From Micromonospora echinospora (GTDB taxonomy: Bacteria; Actinomycetota; Actinomycetes; Mycobacteriales; Micromonosporaceae), in NCBI RefSeq assembly GCF_900091495.1, contig NZ_LT607413.1:6649001-6713000 (forward strand): 64,000 nt of DNA, written 5' to 3'. Under the pieces are notes generated by a model. The model worked only from the letters and a program-made list of their open reading frames with translations. It was not told the DNA's origin and did no database searches. Position numbers and translations under genes: made by a program. Shown here piece by piece: positions 45,313-54,986 of the stretch (within the stretch, counting starts at the first letter, position 1; each line of letters begins with the position of its first letter).

Positions 45313-45522
45313 GGTCGCCTCCCCTGGTCTCGGGTCTGACCTAAGGAGACTAGAGGATGCGTCCCGGACGACTCGGCCCCGACCGGGCCTCGTCGCGCCA
45401 CCGGCGGATGGGTCGGACCGACCCTCACCTGCCGGTCACGGGCCGGTGGCCGTACGCGACGGACCGCTCCGCCGGCGGGTGCCGGCGGGGTCCGTGTCGT
45501 ACGGGTCTCCTACAGTGCGCCG

Positions 45523-48405
45523 GTGCCTGTTGAACGTTGGTCCACCGCGCAGGTCCTCGCCGTCGCGCCCGACCCCGCCGCCGCCCGTGCCGCCCGCAGT
45601 GTCGGCGGCGCCGCCAAGTGGTCGGCGTCCGGCCTGACCGACGAGGTGCTCTGGGGGCTGTGCAAGGGCAGCGGGAAGAACCCGTACCAGGTCTGCGTCG
45701 ACCTGTCCGGGCCGGCGTACCGCTGCTCCTGCCCGAGCCGAAAGTTCCCCTGCAAACACGCCCTGGGTCTGCTGCTGCTCTGGGCCGAGTCCGGAGCCGG
45801 CGACGCCGAGGCGCCGGACTGGGTCGTCGAGTGGCAGGACGGACGGGCGAAACGCGCCGCCCGCGCGAACGAACCACGGACCGCCACCCCGGCGGACCCG
45901 GCCGCCGCCGCCAAGCGGGTCGAGCAGCGCGCCGCCCGGGTGACCGCCGGCCTGGACGAGCTGCGGCGGTGGCTCGACGACCAGGTGGACCAGGGGCTCG
46001 CCGGGGCGGAACAGGCCGGGGCGGATCCGTTCGAGGCGGTCGCTGCGCGGCTGGTCGACGCGCAGGCCCCGACGGTGGCCGGCACGCTGCGGCGGGTGGG
46101 CCGTACGGCCGGCATCGGCGCGCACTGGGCCGACCGCCTCCTCGGCGAACTGGGCCTGATCCGCCTGCTGGTGACCGCCCACGACCGGCTCGACACGCTC
46201 CCGGACGACCTGGCGGCGACCGTCCGGTCCCGGGTCGGTTACCCGGTCGCCACGGACGACGTGCTGGCCACCCCGCCGGTGCGGGACCGCTGGCAGGTCC
46301 TCGGGCAGGTCGACTCCGCCGACGACAAGATCACCACCCGCCGGATCTGGCTGCGCGGAGCGGACAGCGGGCGGTTCGCGCTGGTGCTGGCGTTCGCCGC
46401 GCCCGGCCAGACCTTCCCCGCGGACCTGGTGCCGGGCACCGAGGTCGACGCGGACCTGTGCTTCTACCCGGGCTCCCCGCCGTTGCGGGCGCTGGTCGCC
46501 ACCCGGCACGGCGCCCCGGTGTCGCTGGCCGCCCCGACCGGTGCCGTCGACGTCCGCGCCGCCCTCGCCGCGTACGCGGCCGGGCTCGCCGCCGACCCAT
46601 GGCGGGAGTCGGTGCCGGTGCTGCTCGCCGGGGTCGTCCCCACCCGGGAGGGCCGACTGGTCGACCGGGCCGGCGAGGCGCTGCCCCTGGCCCCCGGGCA
46701 CGACCAGCCGTGGTGGCTGCTCGCCGGAGCCGGTGGCCAACCCGTCGACCTCGCCGCCGAACTCGGCCCGGCCGGACTGCGACCGCTGGCCGCTTGGTCG
46801 CAGGGGTGCTACCTGCCCGCCACGGCGGGCTCGCCGGTCGGCCCGGACGGGCACGCCGCCGAACTCCCCACCGAACTGCTCTCCGCCGCGCTGGTCGGCA
46901 CGGCCCGCCGCCCCTGGGACGGTGCCATGGCGGTGGCCGGACGGCCGCTCGACGCGGGCGGGGAGGGCCCGGCCGGCGTGCTGGAGGCCGCCGCGGTGGC
47001 CCTGACCTACCGGCGGGCCGGCAGGACCCCGTCGACCGGACACGGCCGGGTGCCCGCCGCGCCCGCCGAGTCGACGCCGCCCCTGCCCGCCGCCACCGCC
47101 GTGCGGCTGCGCACCCTGCTCACCGACGGCGGCGCGCCCGGCGGCAGCCAGATCCAGCAGGAACTGCTCGCCGAGTGGCTGCGCCTGGCCGACCGGCACG
47201 GCGGGCTGGTCCCGACCGACACGCTGCCGGCCCTGCTGGACGTCGGGCGACGGCACCGGGCGCTGCGCCCCCTGCTGAGCCGGCTCGGTGGTCGCCGGGG
47301 CCGGTGGCTGGCCGGTCTCCGCTCGGAGTGGGGCTACCTGTTCGACGAGGCCCTCGACCTGACCGTCCCGGCCGGGCAGGGCGGCGGGGACGACTGGGAG
47401 ACCGGCACCACCGGCGAACGGCTGGCGTACCTGACCCGGCTGCGCGCCCGTGACCCGCACGCCGGTCGCGAGCTGCTGGCGGCCGGCTTCGCCGCCGAGA
47501 GCGCGCCCGACCGGGCCCGCTTCGTCGAGGCGCTCGAGGTCGGGCTCTCCCCCGCCGACGACACCTTCCTGGAGGGTGTGCTGGACGACCGGCGCAAGGA
47601 GGTCCGGCAGGCTGCCGTCGCGTTGCTGCGCCAACTGACCGAGTCCGGGCTGCGCCGCCGGATGACCGAACGGGCCACCGCCGCCGTCCGCCTGGACGCG
47701 TCCGGCAGGACGTTGACGGTCGACCCGCCACGCGAGTGCGACCCGGCCATGCGGCGGGACGGGGTGGACCCGCAGCCGCCCCGGGGGACGGGCGCGGCGG
47801 CGTGGCTGCTGGAGGAGGTGCTCGCCGGCACCCCCCTGGCCACCTGGACCGCCGCGTTCGCCCGGACGCCAGCCGAGGTGGTGGCGCTGACCGCCGCCGA
47901 CGACTGGGGTCCGGCGCTGCGCCGGGGCTGGGCCCGGGCCGCCGTCGAGGAGCGGGCCGGCGACTGGGCCGACGCCCTGGTCGCCGGTGCCCGTCCCACC
48001 GGTCGGCAGAGCCGGAACGCGCTGCCGGAGACCCTGCTGTGGCAGCTCTACGAGGTGCTGCCCGCCGAGCGGCTCGGCACCATGGTCGCCGACGCCCTGC
48101 GCACCGACCCGGGCCGGGCCAACCGCCTGCTGGGCATGCTCTCCCAGGACTGGTCCCCCGAGCTCTCCGGCGCGGTGGCCGACGCCATCGGGGTCTGGGC
48201 CCGCACCGAGGGCCGGAACAGCTGGTACCTGGCCGAGGTCTGCCGGATCGCCGGCACCTCCGCGACGCCCGGCCTGACCGACCGGTTCCACCGCCTCACC
48301 GAGGAGCTCACCGGCGAGGGTGTCGACCCGAGCCGGGTCCGCGCCGTCGGGCAACTGGCCGCCGTCCTCGCCTTCCGTTCCGAGATGCACAAGGAGTTCT
48401 CATGA
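45523..48405 (+). CDS. SWIM zinc-finger / DUF5691 fusion protein
   Basis: 960 residues from a GTG. Residues 68-79 form a SWIM zinc finger: Cys68-x-Cys70, Cys77-x-His79 in YRCSCPSRKFPCKHALG. After a basic linker, residues about 130-330 resemble the remaining part of actinobacterial SWIM proteins. From about 340 to the end the protein reads as DUF5691: LLAGVVPTREGRLVDRAGEA, SAALVGTARRPWDGA, and C-terminal helical repeats (PDRARFVEALEVGLSPADDT). In many relatives these are two adjacent genes; here they are one frame. SWIM fingers bind DNA or proteins. ATGA overlap couples it to the MoxR gene. Molecular function unknown. Confidence 0.75.
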   Translation: MPVERWSTAQVLAVAPDPAAARAARSVGGAAKWSASGLTDEVLWGLCKGSGKNPYQVCVDLSGPAYRCSCPSRKFPCKHALGLLLLWAESGAGDAEAPDWVVEWQDGRAKRAARANEPRTATPADPAAAAKRVEQRAARVTAGLDELRRWLDDQVDQGLAGAEQAGADPFEAVAARLVDAQAPTVAGTLRRVGRTAGIGAHWADRLLGELGLIRLLVTAHDRLDTLPDDLAATVRSRVGYPVATDDVLATPPVRDRWQVLGQVDSADDKITTRRIWLRGADSGRFALVLAFAAPGQTFPADLVPGTEVDADLCFYPGSPPLRALVATRHGAPVSLAAPTGAVDVRAALAAYAAGLAADPWRESVPVLLAGVVPTREGRLVDRAGEALPLAPGHDQPWWLLAGAGGQPVDLAAELGPAGLRPLAAWSQGCYLPATAGSPVGPDGHAAELPTELLSAALVGTARRPWDGAMAVAGRPLDAGGEGPAGVLEAAAVALTYRRAGRTPSTGHGRVPAAPAESTPPLPAATAVRLRTLLTDGGAPGGSQIQQELLAEWLRLADRHGGLVPTDTLPALLDVGRRHRALRPLLSRLGGRRGRWLAGLRSEWGYLFDEALDLTVPAGQGGGDDWETGTTGERLAYLTRLRARDPHAGRELLAAGFAAESAPDRARFVEALEVGLSPADDTFLEGVLDDRRKEVRQAAVALLRQLTESGLRRRMTERATAAVRLDASGRTLTVDPPRECDPAMRRDGVDPQPPRGTGAAAWLLEEVLAGTPLATWTAAFARTPAEVVALTAADDWGPALRRGWARAAVEERAGDWADALVAGARPTGRQSRNALPETLLWQLYEVLPAERLGTMVADALRTDPGRANRLLGMLSQDWSPELSGAVADAIGVWARTEGRNSWYLAEVCRIAGTSATPGLTDRFHRLTEELTGEGVDPSRVRAVGQLAAVLAFRSEMHKEFS

Positions 48406-49463
48406 CCGCGCTGCGTCCGCACGCCGAGCAGCAGTACGCCGACGAGCTGGCCGAGCTGGCCGCCACCGACGACCGGCCCCGCCCGCCGGGCTGGCGGCTC
48501 TCGCCGCAGGCGGTGGTGACCTACCTGCTCGGCGACGGCGCCAACATCACCCCGAAGTACGTCGGGCCGCGCCGGTTGATGGAGATCGCGGTGTCGACGC
48601 TGGCCACCGACCGGGCGCTGCTGCTGCTCGGCGTGCCCGGCACCGCGAAGACCTGGGTCTCCGAGCACCTGGCCGCGGCGATCAGCGGTGACTCCACGCT
48701 GCTGGTGCAGGGCACCGCGGGCACCGCCGAGGAGGCCATCCGGTACGGCTGGAACTACGCCCGGCTGCTCTCCGAGGGCCCGTCGCCGGCCGCCCTGGTG
48801 CCGAGCCCGGTGATGCGGGCGATGGAGACCGGCGCGATCGCCCGGGTCGAGGAGCTGACCCGGGTCCCGTCCGACGTGCAGGACACCCTCATCACCATCC
48901 TGTCCGAGAAGACCCTGCCGGTGCCGGAACTGACCAGCGAGGTGCAGGCCCAGCGCGGATTCAACATCATCGCGACCGCCAACGACCGGGACCGGGGCGT
49001 CAACGAGCTGTCCAGTGCGCTGCGCCGCCGGTTCAACACGGTGGTGCTGCCGGTGCCCGCCTCCGCCGAGGAGGAGGTCGACATCGTCACCCGGCGGGTG
49101 GCGCAGCTCGGCCGCTCGCTCGACCTGCCGGAGGTGCCGGCCGCTGTCGAGGAGATCCGCCGGGTCGTGACGATCTTCCGGGAGCTCCGGACCGGCCTCA
49201 CCGAGGACGGCCGTACCAAGCTGAAGTCCCCCACCGGCACCCTCTCCACCGCCGAGGCGATCTCGGTGCTCACCAACGGCCTGGCCCTGGCCGCGCACTT
49301 CGGCGACGGCGTGCTGCGGCCGGGTGACGTCGCGGCCGGCATCGTCGGCGCGGTCATCAAGGACCCGGTCTCCGACGCGGTGGTGTGGCGGGAGTACCTG
49401 GAGACCGTGGTCCGCGAGCGCGAGGAATGGCGCCCCTTCTACCGCGCCGCCCGCGATGCCTGA
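48402..49463 (+). CDS. MoxR-family AAA ATPase
   Basis: 353 residues from the ATG overlapping the previous stop. Walker A GVPGTAKT at residues 77-84. The Walker B region reads IARVEELTR at 146-154, so the usual Asp-Glu is Glu-Glu. Sensor 1 is Asn194 in IIATANDRD, with an arginine-finger cluster at LRRRF near 208-211. MoxR ATPases act as chaperones that remodel or load metal on partner proteins with VWA (MIDAS) domains, and a VWA gene is encoded two genes downstream. Ends eight bases inside the DUF5682 gene. Confidence 0.88.
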   Translation: MTALRPHAEQQYADELAELAATDDRPRPPGWRLSPQAVVTYLLGDGANITPKYVGPRRLMEIAVSTLATDRALLLLGVPGTAKTWVSEHLAAAISGDSTLLVQGTAGTAEEAIRYGWNYARLLSEGPSPAALVPSPVMRAMETGAIARVEELTRVPSDVQDTLITILSEKTLPVPELTSEVQAQRGFNIIATANDRDRGVNELSSALRRRFNTVVLPVPASAEEEVDIVTRRVAQLGRSLDLPEVPAAVEEIRRVVTIFRELRTGLTEDGRTKLKSPTGTLSTAEAISVLTNGLALAAHFGDGVLRPGDVAAGIVGAVIKDPVSDAVVWREYLETVVREREEWRPFYRAARDA

Positions 49464-51738
49464 GCAGCTCTACGGCATCCGCCACCACGGTCCGGGGTCG
49501 GCTCGGGCGGTGGTGGCGGCCCTGGCCGAGCAACGCCCCGACATCCTGCTGGTGGAGGGCCCGCCGGAGGCGGACGAGCTGCTGCGCTGGATGACCGACG
49601 AGCGGCTGGAGCCGCCGGTCGCCCTGCTCGGGTACGCCACCGACGACCCGCGCCGGGCCGGGTTCTGGCCGTTCGCGGTCTTCTCGCCCGAGTGGCAGGC
49701 GATCCGGTGGGCGGTCGCGCACGACGTGCCGGTGCGCTTCTTCGACCTGCCGTACGCCTACCGCCTCGGCGAGCCGGACGACGCCCGGGAGCCGGAGACC
49801 GGGGACCGGCCGGAGGCGGAGAACGGAGACCGGCCGGAGACCGCGAACGGGGACCGGCCGGAGGCGACGGCCGGACCGGAGGCCGGGGCCGGCACCGACG
49901 ACCCGACGCCCCGCCGTCCGGTCGACCCGATCGGGGAACTCGCCGCCGCGGCCGGGTACGACGACCCGGAACGCTGGTGGGAGGACGTGGTCGAGCACCG
50001 GGGCGCCCCGGCGTTCCCGGCGATCGCCGAGGCGATGGCCGCGATCCGCGACGGCGTGCCGGACGACCCCGACGACCTGCTCCGCGAGGCGCACATGCGC
50101 ACCGTGCTGCGGCAGGTCCGGCGCAGCCACGACAACATCGCGGTGGTCTGCGGCGCCTGGCACGTGCCGGCGCTGACCCGGAAGGTGCCGGCCAGCGCCG
50201 ACACCGCCCTGCTCCGGGGACGCCGGAAGACGAAGGTCACCTTCACCTGGGTGCCCTGGACGTACGGCCGGCTGGCGTCCTGGCAGGGCTACGCGGCGGG
50301 GGTCCGCTCCCCCGGCTGGTACCACCACCTGTTCACCTCCGAGAACGAGGTGGTCGCCCGGTGGCTGGTCGCCGCCGCCGGGGTGCTCCGCGACGAGGGG
50401 GTGCCCGCCTCGTCCGCCCACGTCATCGAGGCGGCCCGGCTGGCCGAGACGCTCGCCACGCTGCGCGGCCGGCCGCTGGCCGGGCTCACCGAGCTCACCG
50501 ACGCCAGCGCGGCGGTGCTCTGCGAGGGCGACCCGCTGCGGCTGGAGCTGATCGGCCGACGGCTGGTGGTGGGCGAGCGGCTCGGCGGCGTACCGGACGA
50601 CATGCCGGCGGTGCCGCTGGCCCGCGACCTGGCCACCCAGCAGCGCAGCCTGCGGCTCAAGCCGGAGGCCCTGGAACGGGAGCTGGACCTCGACCTGCGC
50701 CGCGACAACGACCTGTCCCGGAGCCGGCTGCTGCACCGCCTGCGGGTGCTCGGCGTGCCGTGGGGCGAGTCGGACCAGCGGCGGCGGGGCACCGGCACGT
50801 TCCGGGAGCAGTGGCGGCTGCGGTGGCAGCCGGAGTTCTCGGTACGGCTGGTCGAGGCGAGCGCGCACGGCACCACCGTCGTCTCCGCCGCCACCGCCGC
50901 GGTGGCCGCCACCGCCCGTGCCGCCGACAGCCTCGCCGAGGTCACCGCGCTGGTCGAGGTCTGCCTGCTCGCCGACCTCGCCGACGCCTACCCCCCGGTC
51001 CTGCGGGCGTTGGACACCCGGGCCGCTCTGGACGCCGACGTGGCGCACCTGATGGCGGCCATCCCGCCGCTGGTCCGCACGCTGCGCTACGGCGACGTCC
51101 GGCGCAGCGAACTCGGCGGGTTGGCCGAGGTGACCACCGGGCTGCTGGCCCGGGTCCGCGCCGGCCTGCCCGCCGCGGTCGTCGGCCTGGCCGACCAGGC
51201 GGCCCGGGACCTGCGCGGGCACCTGGACGAGGTGCACGCCGCGGTCAACCTCCTCGACGAGGCGGCACGGGAGCCGTGGCTGGACACCCTCGCCTCGCTC
51301 GCCGACCGGGACGACCTGCACGGCCTGCTCGCCGGCCGGCTGGTCCGGCTGCTGCACGACGCGGGCCGGCTGGAGCGCGCCGAGGTGCGCCGACGGATGG
51401 GCCTGCCGTTGACCGCCGGGGTCGCCCCCGCCGACGGGGCCGCCTGGGTGGAAGGTTTCCTCGGCGGCGGCGGGCTCCTGCTGGTGCACGACGACGCGTT
51501 GCTGTCCCTGGTGGACGAGTGGCTGGCCGGTGTTCCCGCCGACTCGTTCACCGAGGTCCTGCCGCTGCTGCGCCGGACCTTCGGCAGCTTCGCCGCCGGG
51601 GAACGCCGGGCCATCGGCGACCGGGTGGCCCACCGTGGCCGGCCGGTGCACCGGGCCCCGGTGGCCGACCTCGACCACGACCGGGCGACGGCGGTCCTGC
51701 CCACGCTCGGCATCCTGCTCGGACGGGAGATCTCATGA
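49456..51738 (+). CDS. DUF5682 family protein
   Basis: 760 residues from the ATG at 49456; longer frames lie inside the ATPase gene. N-terminal YGIRHHGPGSARAVVAAL and ILLVEGPPEADELLRWM, plus AVVCGAWHVPALTRKV around residue 230, recall the TraB/TIKI/EreA-like fold, in which similarly placed Glu and His residues form the active site. That link is my inference. The C-terminal 400 residues are helical repeats. Residues 114-137 are three 8-residue GDRPE-containing repeats, a probable flexible linker. Coupled to the genes on both sides. It could be the effector or a substrate receptor of the MoxR-VWA pair; function unknown. Confidence 0.7.
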   Translation: MPEQLYGIRHHGPGSARAVVAALAEQRPDILLVEGPPEADELLRWMTDERLEPPVALLGYATDDPRRAGFWPFAVFSPEWQAIRWAVAHDVPVRFFDLPYAYRLGEPDDAREPETGDRPEAENGDRPETANGDRPEATAGPEAGAGTDDPTPRRPVDPIGELAAAAGYDDPERWWEDVVEHRGAPAFPAIAEAMAAIRDGVPDDPDDLLREAHMRTVLRQVRRSHDNIAVVCGAWHVPALTRKVPASADTALLRGRRKTKVTFTWVPWTYGRLASWQGYAAGVRSPGWYHHLFTSENEVVARWLVAAAGVLRDEGVPASSAHVIEAARLAETLATLRGRPLAGLTELTDASAAVLCEGDPLRLELIGRRLVVGERLGGVPDDMPAVPLARDLATQQRSLRLKPEALERELDLDLRRDNDLSRSRLLHRLRVLGVPWGESDQRRRGTGTFREQWRLRWQPEFSVRLVEASAHGTTVVSAATAAVAATARAADSLAEVTALVEVCLLADLADAYPPVLRALDTRAALDADVAHLMAAIPPLVRTLRYGDVRRSELGGLAEVTTGLLARVRAGLPAAVVGLADQAARDLRGHLDEVHAAVNLLDEAAREPWLDTLASLADRDDLHGLLAGRLVRLLHDAGRLERAEVRRRMGLPLTAGVAPADGAAWVEGFLGGGGLLLVHDDALLSLVDEWLAGVPADSFTEVLPLLRRTFGSFAAGERRAIGDRVAHRGRPVHRAPVADLDHDRATAVLPTLGILLGREIS
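49795..49866 (+). repeat. In-frame 24-bp tandem repeat within the DUF5682 gene
   Basis: Three 24-bp units encode 8-residue blocks of the form (E/A)(T/N)GDRPE(A/T). It is a coding minisatellite that can change copy number without breaking the frame. Confidence 0.9.
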
Positions 51739-52952
51739 CCGCCTCCACCGACGCCTTCCCGGAGGGTGGCGCGACGTCCCCCCGGGCCGGCGGGGACGCG
51801 GACCGGGAGCGGCTACGCCGCTGGCGGATGGTGCTCGGCGGGCCGGCCGAGGACGCCTGCGGCCGTCTCTCCGGCGGCGACGCCGCGATGGACGGGGCGC
51901 TGGCCGCCCTCTACGACGGCGACGGCGACGGCACCGGCGGCTCGTCCCGGCGCTCGGCCGGGCTCGGCGGCTCCGCCCCCCGGGTGGCCCGTTGGCTCGG
52001 CGACATCCGCCAGTACTTCCCGTCGACCGTCGTGCAGGTGATGCAGGCCGACGCGATCGAACGGCTCAACCTCACCCGCCTGCTGCTGGAACCGGAGATG
52101 CTCGCCGCGGTCGAGCCGGACGTGCACCTGGTCGGCACGCTGCTCTCCCTGAACCGGGTCATGCCGGACCAGACCAAGGAGGCGGCCCGGCAGGTGGTCC
52201 GGCGGGTGGTCGAGGAGCTGGAACGGCGGATCGCGCAGCAGACCAGGGCGGCGGTGACCGGGGCGTTGAACCGGGCCACCCGGATCAACCGCCCCCGGCA
52301 CGCCGACATCGACTGGGACCGCACCATCCGGGCGAACCTCAAGCACTACCAGCAGGAGCACCGCACGGTGATCCCCGAACGGCTGGTGGGTTACGGGCGG
52401 CGCACCACGGCGGTGCAACGGGACGTGGTGCTCTGCGTCGACCAGTCCGGCTCGATGGCGGCCTCGGTGGTCTACTCCGGAGTGTTCGCCGCGGTGCTCG
52501 CCTCGATGCGGTCGCTGCGGACCTCACTGGTGGTCTTCGACACCGCGGTCGTGGACCTCACCGACCAGCTCAGCGACCCGGTGGAGGTGCTGTTCGGCAC
52601 GCAACTGGGCGGCGGCACCGACATCAACCGGGCGATCGGCTACAGCCAGCAGCTGATCACCCGTCCCCGGGACAGCATCTTCGTCCTGATCAGCGACCTC
52701 TACGAGGGCGGGGTACGGGAGCAGATGCTGCGCCGGGTGGCGGAGATGACCGCCGCCGGGGTCCAGGTGGTCGTCCTGCTGGCGCTCTCCGACGAGGGTG
52801 CCCCGGCCTACGACCGGGCGAACGCCGCCGCGCTGGCCGCCCTCGGGGTGCCGGCCTTCGCCTGCACGCCGGACGCCTTTCCCGACCTGATGGCCGCCGC
52901 CATCGAACGTCGTGACCTGGTGGCCTTCGCCGAGCGGTTCGCCGACCGGTGA
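51735..52952 (+). CDS. VWA (von Willebrand factor A) domain protein
   Basis: 405 residues; ATG overlaps the previous stop. Helical N-terminal half with a Gly/Asp-rich loop (DGDGDGTGG near residue 62). VWA domain from about 228: VVLCVDQSGSMAASVV gives the MIDAS DxSxS (Asp236, Ser238, Ser240), Thr295 in GGGTDIN and Asp321 in LISDLYEGG complete the metal site. No signal peptide or membrane segment, so it acts in the cytoplasm, the usual partner of a MoxR ATPase. Last gene of the four-gene module; its 3' 429 bases overlap the end of a convergent gene. Confidence 0.88.
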   Translation: MTASTDAFPEGGATSPRAGGDADRERLRRWRMVLGGPAEDACGRLSGGDAAMDGALAALYDGDGDGTGGSSRRSAGLGGSAPRVARWLGDIRQYFPSTVVQVMQADAIERLNLTRLLLEPEMLAAVEPDVHLVGTLLSLNRVMPDQTKEAARQVVRRVVEELERRIAQQTRAAVTGALNRATRINRPRHADIDWDRTIRANLKHYQQEHRTVIPERLVGYGRRTTAVQRDVVLCVDQSGSMAASVVYSGVFAAVLASMRSLRTSLVVFDTAVVDLTDQLSDPVEVLFGTQLGGGTDINRAIGYSQQLITRPRDSIFVLISDLYEGGVREQMLRRVAEMTAAGVQVVVLLALSDEGAPAYDRANAAALAALGVPAFACTPDAFPDLMAAAIERRDLVAFAERFADR

Positions 52953-54200
52953 CCTGGACGGCGGGACGGCCGGTGCGGTGACCGCCGCGTCGACCGGCCC
53001 GCCGTCCACCGTGCGGAAGACCGGCACCGACCGGACCGCGGCGAGGTAGGGCGTCCCCTCGGTGTAGCCCGTTCCCGACCGTTCGCCGAGCATCCGCATC
53101 GCCAGTCGGTGGTGCGTGCGCCGCCAGGTGAGCAGCGCCCCGGCGAAGGCCCGCATCCCGTCGGCGACCTGTGCGCGTCCAGCAGGGTCGAGCAGGCCCC
53201 GCTGCGCCGCGCTGCGGTACGCCTGGTCGATGGTCGGCTGCCCGGCCAGGACGCGCTGCCGGACCTCCGGGGTGGAGCGGTAGGCCGCGCTGTCCAGCCG
53301 TTCCTGGTCGGGCGTGCGGCAGAGCGACTCGACCAGTTTGTAGCTGTGCGACTGGATGGCGCTGGCCCCCTCGGTGTACGCCCGGAACGTCCGGAACGAC
53401 TCGGGCTGCATGGTGGCCAGCAGGGAGAACAGCGGCGCCGAGCCGGCCAGCGCCTCGGTCGCCGTGGCGAGGTGCGCGGCGGCGGGCCCGGCGGCACCTC
53501 GGACCAGCGCGTCCCGCGCGGCCCGCAGCAGCACGACGAGCAGGGCGAAGGTGGTCTCGTACGACTGGAGCACCCGGATGAAGAGGTACTCGTCGTGGAC
53601 CACGTACACCGGCAGCATGGACAGTCGCAGGTCCCGCCGCTCGGCGGTGGTGGCCTCCACACCGGCGCAGAACTCGGCGGCGGCGGCCAGTGGGTCGTTC
53701 GCGGTGATGGTGGTGAGCGGACTGAGCCGGGCCAGGGCGGGCTGGGCGGCCCGGACCGTCAGCCGCAACCGCTTGGTCAGCCGGTCGCGGTCGGGGCGTT
53801 GCCCGGGCAGCAGGTCGGTGCGGCCCGCCTCGACGTCCAGTTCGAAACGGAGCAGGTCCGCCAACAGGTGCAGGTACCGCCGGTCGCGGTGCCGTCGGGC
53901 CCGGTCCGGGGTGACCTCGCCGGTCCCCTCGGTCGCCATCGACAGTACGGGGAGGGCCAGGTAGGAGTGGTAGTCGTACCGTCCGTCCCACTTGTCGAGC
54001 GCGCAGTCGAGGAAGCGGCGTAACCGGATCGCGCCGGGACGCGGGTCGGGGGGTAGCGCCGCCCGGGCGCGGTCGAGGCAGAGCAGGACGTCCCGGTCGA
54101 CGAAGTGTTTACCGACCCGCAGATATTCGGTGGTAACCGTCGGATAGGGGAATTCGGCCGGATCGGCCCCGGCGGACAACCAGCATTCCACGTCGCGCAC
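52524..54200 (-). CDS. Tryptophan 2,3-dioxygenase-superfamily protein with antisense-overlapping C-terminal tail
   Basis: About 558 residues from GTG 54200 (GAGGTGA five bases upstream; a GTG at 54209 lacks a site). Residues about 200-410 follow the tryptophan dioxygenase layout: HDEYLFIRVLQSYETTFALL, TMQPESFRTFRAYTEGASAI, QSHSYKLVESL, then LTWRRTHHRLAMRMLGERSG and TGYTEGTPYLAAVRS. The proximal haem-ligand His region (RTHHR) is kept, while the position of the distal His in HQxxE reads Leu (LQSYE). The family domain ends near 53000, but no stop occurs until 52524, so the predicted tail of about 150 residues is antisense to the VWA gene and low in complexity. A sequencing frameshift near 52980 or a genuine overlap are both possible. 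Substrate unknown. Confidence 0.7.
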   Translation of the reverse strand: MRDVECWLSAGADPAEFPYPTVTTEYLRVGKHFVDRDVLLCLDRARAALPPDPRPGAIRLRRFLDCALDKWDGRYDYHSYLALPVLSMATEGTGEVTPDRARRHRDRRYLHLLADLLRFELDVEAGRTDLLPGQRPDRDRLTKRLRLTVRAAQPALARLSPLTTITANDPLAAAAEFCAGVEATTAERRDLRLSMLPVYVVHDEYLFIRVLQSYETTFALLVVLLRAARDALVRGAAGPAAAHLATATEALAGSAPLFSLLATMQPESFRTFRAYTEGASAIQSHSYKLVESLCRTPDQERLDSAAYRSTPEVRQRVLAGQPTIDQAYRSAAQRGLLDPAGRAQVADGMRAFAGALLTWRRTHHRLAMRMLGERSGTGYTEGTPYLAAVRSVPVFRTVDGGPVDAAVTAPAVPPSRSPVGEPLGEGHQVTTFDGGGHQVGKGVRRAGEGRHPEGGQRGGVRPVVGRGTLVGERQQDDHLDPGGGHLRHPAQHLLPYPALVEVADQDEDAVPGTGDQLLAVADRPVDVGAAAQLRAEQHLHRVAELVGEVHDRGVEDHQ

Positions 54201-54986
54201 GAACGTCACCTCAGCAGTCGACAGGGAGAGTCGGACGGCGGGACCGGAACCCCGACCGGGCGTCTAACGACACGCGGTACCGGCCGCCGTCGCCGGCCGG
54301 GTCAGTTTCGACGGGCCGAACAGGCGGCTGTCAACGAATCGGCGGAGACGCGATCACCGACCGGAGAAGCGGTCACCGATCAATAGGGCGGGAATGCCTC
54401 CCCACCCGTCAGGGATCCCGGCCCGGGTGGCCCGGCCGAGCAGCCGTATTCCTTGCCGGTCAGGAGATCCGGGCGCGACCGGGCACGACTGTGATGGGGG
54501 TCGCCGGGCAGCACGGGGACCGAGTGTTTCCTCTTCACAGATCCCACTTTCTGTGACAGGGGACACGTCCCGACCGGGTCGGGGACCCGGGGCATCCGCA
54601 AACCGGAAAAAATCGCGGCACGGAACCCCGGACACCAACGACGAGACAACTTACCGAGCAATAGATCGCTGCGCAAGAACGTCAATCGATTTGTCGATCA
54701 TTAAGTCCGATATGAATACTTCACCCATGGTCGCCCGGCGATTCGCCCCAATGCACGTCGGGGCGATGGACGAGAAGGCGGCTTCTTCCCCGCGTCGGCC
54801 GTCCCGCCCGGGTCGCCGTGTCCGGCACCACACCCGGGACGGGCAGGGCCGTGGACTCGCGACGGGACGCCGGCACCGAACCCGGCAGCCCAGCGGAACG
54901 GCGCAGCGGACCGGGTCACCGGTGGGCCGGTGACCGCCCGATCCGGCGGACAAATCGGTCCGCGGACCGATCTCGCTGGCGGAACG

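Follow-up and report, generated by a model that had tools for sequence, protein, structure and literature searches.

A MoxR, DUF5682 and VWA gene module of Micromonospora echinospora, related to the Escherichia coli yeh operon, and its putative DNA-damage-type promoter

MoxR ATPases of the AAA+ class are paired with VWA proteins bearing a metal ion-dependent adhesion site (MIDAS) in several described systems, among them NorQ-NorD, CoxD-CoxE and RavA-ViaA. In NorQD, a finger of the VWA protein is reported to enter the pore of the MoxR hexamer, with a linker of NorD being put under strain by the ATPase. YehL is one of seven named MoxR subfamilies (PMC3893208), and its gene stands in E. coli MG1655 in a row that reads yehI (DUF4132), yehK, yehL (MoxR), yehM, yehP (VWA) and yehQ (SWIM). 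The yeh gene names occur together in the literature, for example in a deletion list; no function in print was found for the operon, and a full-text search found no paper naming DUF5682 or DUF5691. Here we describe a four-gene module at positions 45523–52952 of a 64,000-nucleotide stretch of the Micromonospora echinospora genome (contig NZ_LT607413.1, positions 6,649,001 to 6,713,000; hereafter the window). Judged by sequence, the module is a variant of the known, uncharacterised yehL-yehM-yehP-yehQ operon of E. coli K-12, and its genes likely encode an ATP-driven protein-remodelling machine. On balance we favour the view that this AAA+/VWA variant of the YehL-YehM-YehP-YehQ set would be inducible by DNA damage.

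The four genes lie on the forward strand and overlap successively by 4, 8 and 4 bases. The first (45523–48405, GTG start) encodes a 960-residue protein in which a SWIM domain (residues 58–85; Pfam E-value 6.6e-6) and a DUF5691 domain (residues 451–959; 4e-141) share a single chain. Its zinc ligands, CxCx6CxH at residues 68–79 (45724–45759), are all four kept in 76 of 76 aligned proteins. A MoxR ATPase of the YehL kind, 353 residues long, follows (48402–49463; AAA_5, 8e-39), with the Walker A sequence GVPGTAKT at residues 77–84 (48630–48653) and the Walker B sequence R-V-E-E-L-T at residues 148–153. The usual Walker B form is DE; R-x-E-E-x-T was found in all 84 aligned proteins, YehL among them. 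The third gene (49456–51738) encodes a 760-residue DUF5682 protein that covers the entire Pfam profile (1e-273), and the fourth (51735–52952) a 405-residue VWA protein of the CoxE type, with VWA_CoxE as its top VWA profile (1e-54) and a complete MIDAS (D236, S238, S240, T295 and D321). The D, S, S and final D are kept in 83 of 84 aligned VWA proteins, the remaining row having a gap, and the threonine in 82. An earlier reading made from the letters alone (the sequence-only reading) had described four overlapping genes with SWIM ligands, a MoxR ATPase and a complete MIDAS, all of which coordinates, Pfam and alignments confirmed. The closest database proteins, at 95–96%, come from Micromonospora echinospora. 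No NCBIfam family scored above cut-off for the four proteins, and no signal peptide was obvious in them by eye, no prediction program having been used.

Comparison with E. coli by BLASTP gave identities of 44% between the window MoxR protein and YehL, 25% between the DUF5682 protein and YehM over nearly the full length, and 37% between the VWA protein and YehP. Because of these identities, because YehM is itself a DUF5682 protein (2e-98) and because the Walker B form R-x-E-E-x-T is common to both, we regard the window module as a yeh variant, a relationship absent from the sequence-only reading. In both, a SWIM gene stands beside the MoxR, DUF5682 and VWA genes. The two differ in that the SWIM gene comes last in E. 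coli, and in that DUF5691, which has no match in E. coli, occupies the window where E. coli has DUF4132 (YehI); no DUF4132 was seen in the window cassette. A profile built from SWIM proteins of the window type failed to recover YehQ (E<=1), yet YehQ keeps the SWIM ligands. DUF5691 was also considered as a relative of DUF4132/YehI and rejected (hhalign probability 0.2–0.25%); one Hymenobacter DUF5691 protein gave a weak DUF5724 match (E 0.48). The window differs from the other MoxR/VWA chaperones in its extra SWIM, DUF5691 and DUF5682 proteins, and its score against the ViaA equivalog profile was 16.1 bits, versus a cut-off of 500.

Gene neighbourhoods were surveyed in 80 loci, the best 80 of 568 confirmed and thus a sample biased to the window's own subtype. 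DUF5682 shares its locus with MoxR in 78 of these and with VWA in 78, so the arrangement is not a matter of chance, and the earlier claim of one coupled module is borne out by its conservation across phyla in these loci, in 396 genomes and on plasmids. Contig ends cut L084 and L097 (MoxR) and L098 (VWA), and L097 has no VWA match in the 10 kb downstream. The complete set runs in a single orientation in 38 loci; SWIM and DUF5691 are divergent from MoxR-DUF5682-VWA in 30, and 12 are incomplete, mostly at contig ends. That the fused SWIM and DUF5691 parts act together, as the sequence-only reading held, is a fair deduction, but they form a single open reading frame (ORF) in only 10 of the 80 loci, all from Actinoplanes-like Micromonosporaceae, and separate ORFs in 58; the 12 incomplete or unresolved for this count include L039, where the ORF runs through with no DUF5691 match. 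A Hymenobacter protein of 1009 residues represents a second, distant fusion (SWIM weak, E 0.011).

The PafBC (P1) consensus of the mycobacterial, LexA-independent DNA-damage response is tTGTCRgtg-8nt-TannnT (PMC5656591). Our motif scan placed a Micromonosporaceae variant of it, TGTCGTAC-N8-TACAGT, directly before the module on the forward strand, where positions 45495–45516 read TGTCGTACGGGTCTCCTACAGT and end 6 nt 5' of the GTG start. Since the -10 hexamer ends so close to the GTG, the transcript is probably leaderless. Over the 73 of the 80 loci with a SWIM match (3,022,506 nt, both strands), TTGTCRGTG-N8-TAnnnT lies at most 200 nt upstream of the SWIM start in 37, out of only 39 matches in all. 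The same interval holds TGTCGTAC-N8-TAnnnT in 7 loci (7 matches in total) and the loose form TGTC-N12-TAnnnT in 58 (75 in total). For 57 of these 58 loose matches, a possible start codon in any frame begins no more than 7 nt from the -10 hexamer, as in leaderless transcripts; gene ends in the relatives' genomes come from a script based on G+C at third codon positions (GC3), so motif-to-start distances there are rough. In Streptomyces-type loci, TTGTCAGTG stands on both strands of the divergent intergenic region, and TTGTCRGTG is upstream of the divergent MoxR gene in 33 of 34. Matches also occur at Nocardiopsis, Streptomonospora and Streptosporangium loci and, with a different -10, in Amycolatopsis, and most Actinoplanes-like loci have the core TGTCGTAC, CGTCGTAC or similar with unchanged spacing.

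Genes known for DNA repair stand behind the same motifs elsewhere. A Streptomyces-like genome of the same class with the divergent arrangement (G023, 9.2 Mb) has 21 sites of the strict consensus versus 1 of the reversed control. One of the 21 is, by place and sequence, that of this module's SWIM gene; nine of the other 20 precede genes for UDG, RuvC, UvrA, UvrB, 6-O-methylguanine methyltransferase, RecD2, UvrD, DnaN and RecA (Pfam), and the genes behind another three are two DEAD-type helicases and one carrying a RecD2 HHH domain. The remainder consists of four sites before the genes for ribosomal S6, a sigma factor, GmrSD and SUKH-4, three before genes without a family, and one before a poor ORF that was left unscanned. 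In the window genome (7.78 Mb), TGTCGTAC-N8-TAnnnT has six sites, versus none for the reversed pattern, and these precede the module, uvrA, an AlkZ-like DNA glycosylase, a DUF4230 gene and two genes without a family. A pair of neighbouring WYL genes, which PafB-PafC would be expected to form, lies at 7.109–7.111 Mb of this genome, which has eight WYL matches in all. Ten sister-cassette loci (389,080 nt) contain 8 loose TGTC-N12-TAnnnT matches, of which 7 lie ahead of the first gene found. The distance is between 10 and about 130 nt in L003, L117, L118, L122, L123 and L125, and about 230 nt in L121. In L124 the contig stops at the 5' end and the match lies elsewhere; L119 and L120, which have partial DUF5682 genes, have none. 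In Deinococcus, an operon with a DUF4132 gene, which may or may not belong to such a cassette, is reported to be up on DdrO depletion (PMC8533742). The pattern suggests that Streptomyces-like bacteria have a damage regulon of the PafBC type, independent of LexA, and that Micromonosporaceae have one with a shifted motif; this damage-type promoter, a feature that the sequence-only reading lacked, lends support to the stress-response role that it had suggested.

In Micromonosporaceae (L034–L044, the window at 45495–45516, and uvrA of the window genome), the TGTCRGTG core seems to have given way to TGTCGTAC, and the specificity of PafBC may have changed with it. As a separate observation, two facing TGTCGGTG-N8-TAnnnT motifs are present in the window genome (G000:C1:6931383-6931503; L162 and L163), flanked by the gene for a second SWIM zinc-finger protein (440 residues) and a divergent gene that is SUKH-like by eye.

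Several observations weigh against regulation by DNA damage. The window core is TGTCGTAC and not the TGTCRGTG of the literature, and it is not an independent match, because the variant was recognised from the module's own relatives; the uvrA and AlkZ-like sites are independent. The unshifted TGTCRGTG motif also occurs in the window genome (8 sites versus 1 reversed), and the five genes scanned behind these sites included no clear repair gene, the weak RuvB_N match (E 0.003) being below cut-off. Even the loose TGTC-N12-TAnnnT is missing from 15 of the 73 loci, with some near matches by eye, and the -10 of the divergent MoxR promoters fits NAnnnT in 34 of 34 but TAnnnT in none. Beyond the actinobacteria, no strict SOS-type box was found in seven upstream regions (Hymenobacter left out), with the exception of Sinorhizobium, whose GTTC-N7-GTTC lies 700 bases upstream; neither this box nor the loose SOS-type matches, at L005:7929 in E. 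coli and, some 110 bases upstream, at L094:5665 in Leptolyngbya, were counted as support. A search of the yeh region for the E. coli LexA box, with up to 3 mismatches allowed, found none. The initial search described in PMC9380542, in which the PafBC regulon of Streptomyces is left open, did not find the motif conserved in S. venezuelae; contrary to this, the G023 sites suggest that it is conserved in at least that genome.

We strongly infer that DNA damage would activate a PafBC-type activator, which would then fire the probably leaderless promoter at 45495–45516. By analogy with NorQ and NorD, the YehL-type MoxR hexamer would dock on the VWA/MIDAS protein and use ATP to stretch or twist it together with its cargo. 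The SWIM-DUF5691 protein would be the adaptor that picks the target, DNA or a DNA-bound protein, the damage promoter pointing to DNA-bound targets. DUF5682, with a probable TraB/TIKI-like domain on an alpha-solenoid, would be the part worked on, or else a hydrolytic tool, as may be proposed because of its fold, its invariant residues and the fusion of DUF5682 to VWA in a sister cassette of the same genome. Much more tentatively, the MoxR-DUF5682-VWA triad in all its subtypes (Streptomyces, Micromonospora, Deinococcus and E. coli yehLMPQ) could be an overlooked DNA-damage-response machine, an ATP-driven remodeller that works with a TraB/TIKI-like hydrolase, is guided by a SWIM zinc protein and removes or processes protein-DNA complexes that are damaged or stuck.

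The sequence-only reading had suggested that DUF5682 may share a TraB/TIKI/EreA-like fold, a view that the structural comparison favours in part for the N terminus and TraB/TIKI. Among alpha/beta folds, TraB/TIKI ranked first for the AlphaFold model in two structure libraries; in this model an N-terminal alpha/beta domain (about residues 1–310; 49456–50385, forward strand) precedes a C-terminal alpha-solenoid (residues 458–727; 50827–51636, forward strand), the latter being a difference from the TraB/TIKI superfamily. The alignment of 64 proteins has 51 invariant columns, and R9, H10, E34, R210, E211 and H236 are among the invariant residues of the N terminus. The motifs GxRHH, VEGP and CGxWH resemble those of TraB/TIKI, as seen in YbaP. 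However, Foldseek on the Protein Data Bank (PDB) was not significant for the model, with mainly helical proteins among the matches listed, and no erythromycin-esterase entry appeared by title among the best 50 structural matches listed. Sequence-profile comparison by hhalign with TraB and erythromycin esterase was likewise not significant (P 0.16 for the esterase, 0.26 for two TraB and 0.071 for YbaP alone, versus 0.17–0.49 for four unrelated controls). The DUF5682 profile had no match to PDB sequences up to E 10, YbaP had six (best E 0.53, none convincing), and Pfam TraB gave no match for the window protein. A TraB/TIKI-like domain followed by a helical solenoid is thus a probable but unproven description, based on the predicted model.

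A conflict module, anti-phage or abortive, that is merely induced by damage would explain some of these features, with DUF5682 as a toxic effector freed by a MoxR/VWA switch. Phage attack and DNA damage often coincide, the distribution is patchy (DUF5682 in 24 of 396 Actinomycetota genomes; DUF5691 in none of 36 other genomes of the genus), DUF5682 relatives occur in 33 plasmid records, and the motif in G023 also precedes GmrSD-type and SUKH-4 genes. MoxR-vWA ternary conflict systems, in which a single operon encodes MoxR, VWA and a third partner, have been described (PMC7159879, in which a term search found neither YehL nor TraB). The window nevertheless scores 20.7 bits against bpMoxR, below the cut-off of 27, and Pfam saw no effector or beta-propeller in it. 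PADLOC matches were only marginal (IetA and REase models against the ATPase, E 0.007–0.08), and the many invariant columns of DUF5682 are unlike a fast-changing effector. DUF5691 is moreover present in all 11 DUF5682-bearing genomes of one Streptomyces-like genus. None of 41 candidate viral stretches carried the module, and with the PADLOC result and no convincing phage copy, the defence role that the sequence-only reading had allowed for finds little support; we think this explanation unlikely. One record titled 'Bacteriophage sp.', 14 kb long, lacks annotation and may be bacterial DNA; it encodes a relative of DUF5682 (26.7% identity; MT835988.1:10638-12755).

A chaperone for maturation of a metal cofactor or complex, of the NorQD/CoxDE kind and perhaps linked to molybdate as the old name MolR implies, with DUF5682 as client or assembly factor, would fit the VWA_CoxE profile, the metal-insertion role reported for NorQD and likewise for CoxD-CoxE, and the description of MolR as molybdate-linked. 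The seven flanking window genes tested are not constant neighbours in the 80 loci (five without a match, one with 1 match and an MFS gene with 6), so none of them is a client enzyme gene that travels with the module. PMC8533742 reports no change in the molybdate genes that it names, and the promoter class is that of DNA repair; this reading seems to us quite improbable. The motif could also be a general leaderless actinobacterial promoter and the module a constitutive housekeeping remodeller, as 8 of the 20 other G023 sites, one of them left unscanned, precede no repair or helicase family gene. With 21 sites in 9.2 Mb versus 1 reversed, and 9 to 12 of 20 before genes of repair, replication or helicase type, the sites are too few and too specific for that, and we give such a promoter very little credence. 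The damage-inducible remodelling machine therefore remains our preferred reading; the link of the module to a DNA-damage regulon is not in print as far as our literature search reached. The operon is conserved and present even in E. coli K-12, and its assignment to a DNA-damage promoter class that also serves recA and uvrA makes its role directly testable.

DUF5691 (E<1e-10) was found in 21 of the 396 Actinomycetota genomes, each time with a DUF5682 gene no more than about 6 kb away on that contig. Weak matches in genomes without DUF5682, six in number with E from 1e-4 to 8e-4 and one of them over the cut-off together with its neighbours, were dropped. Neighbourhoods were read for 7 of the 33 plasmid records. 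The window-type set (SWIM, DUF5691, MoxR, DUF5682 and VWA) is complete on plasmids of Deinococcus, Rhizobium and Hymenobacter and present at the Leptolyngbya locus (L094); a Methylosinus plasmid has all of it except that no VWA gene is listed downstream. The yeh type, with DUF4132, was seen in E. coli, on Iodobacter and Sinorhizobium plasmids and in actinobacteria (L117, L118 and L122), where MoxR is 64% identical to YehL (L118 and L122) and VWA 58–59% to YehP. A third subtype consists of DUF4132, a protein of at least 1754 residues, MoxR and a DUF5682-VWA fusion, which argues that DUF5682 and VWA act together. The window genome has such a cassette at 5.27 Mb (L003). L003 and its relatives resemble the window in MoxR (46%), part of DUF5682 (33%), VWA (37%) and the loose damage-type motif before the first gene, and differ in the single DUF5682-VWA chain and in the other partner proteins. 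A Streptomyces atratus plasmid has a set similar to this subtype, with an annotated DUF5682 gene of 3.8 kb.

Proteins of 960–1214 residues with only partial DUF5682 similarity (L118:6863-9745, L119:8944-11829 and L120:7779-11423) make up another subtype, whose L119 and L120 members lack an upstream motif; a MoxR gene adjoins in L118 and a VWA gene is near in L120. The genes adjoining the window module encode an S-adenosyl methyltransferase (PF04672) and, downstream of the module on the reverse strand (52960–54209), a distant tryptophan 2,3-dioxygenase relative (Trp_dioxygenase, E 1e-14) that was not matched next to the module at any of the 80 loci. The VWA protein (51735–52949) also gave an Amidohydro_2 match of 26.9 bits (cut-off 26.4) that overlaps the VWA domain and is probably spurious. 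On Hymenobacter and Deinococcus plasmids, small hypothetical proteins are encoded between MoxR and DUF5682 (L127:8365-8976 and L126:8759-8995).

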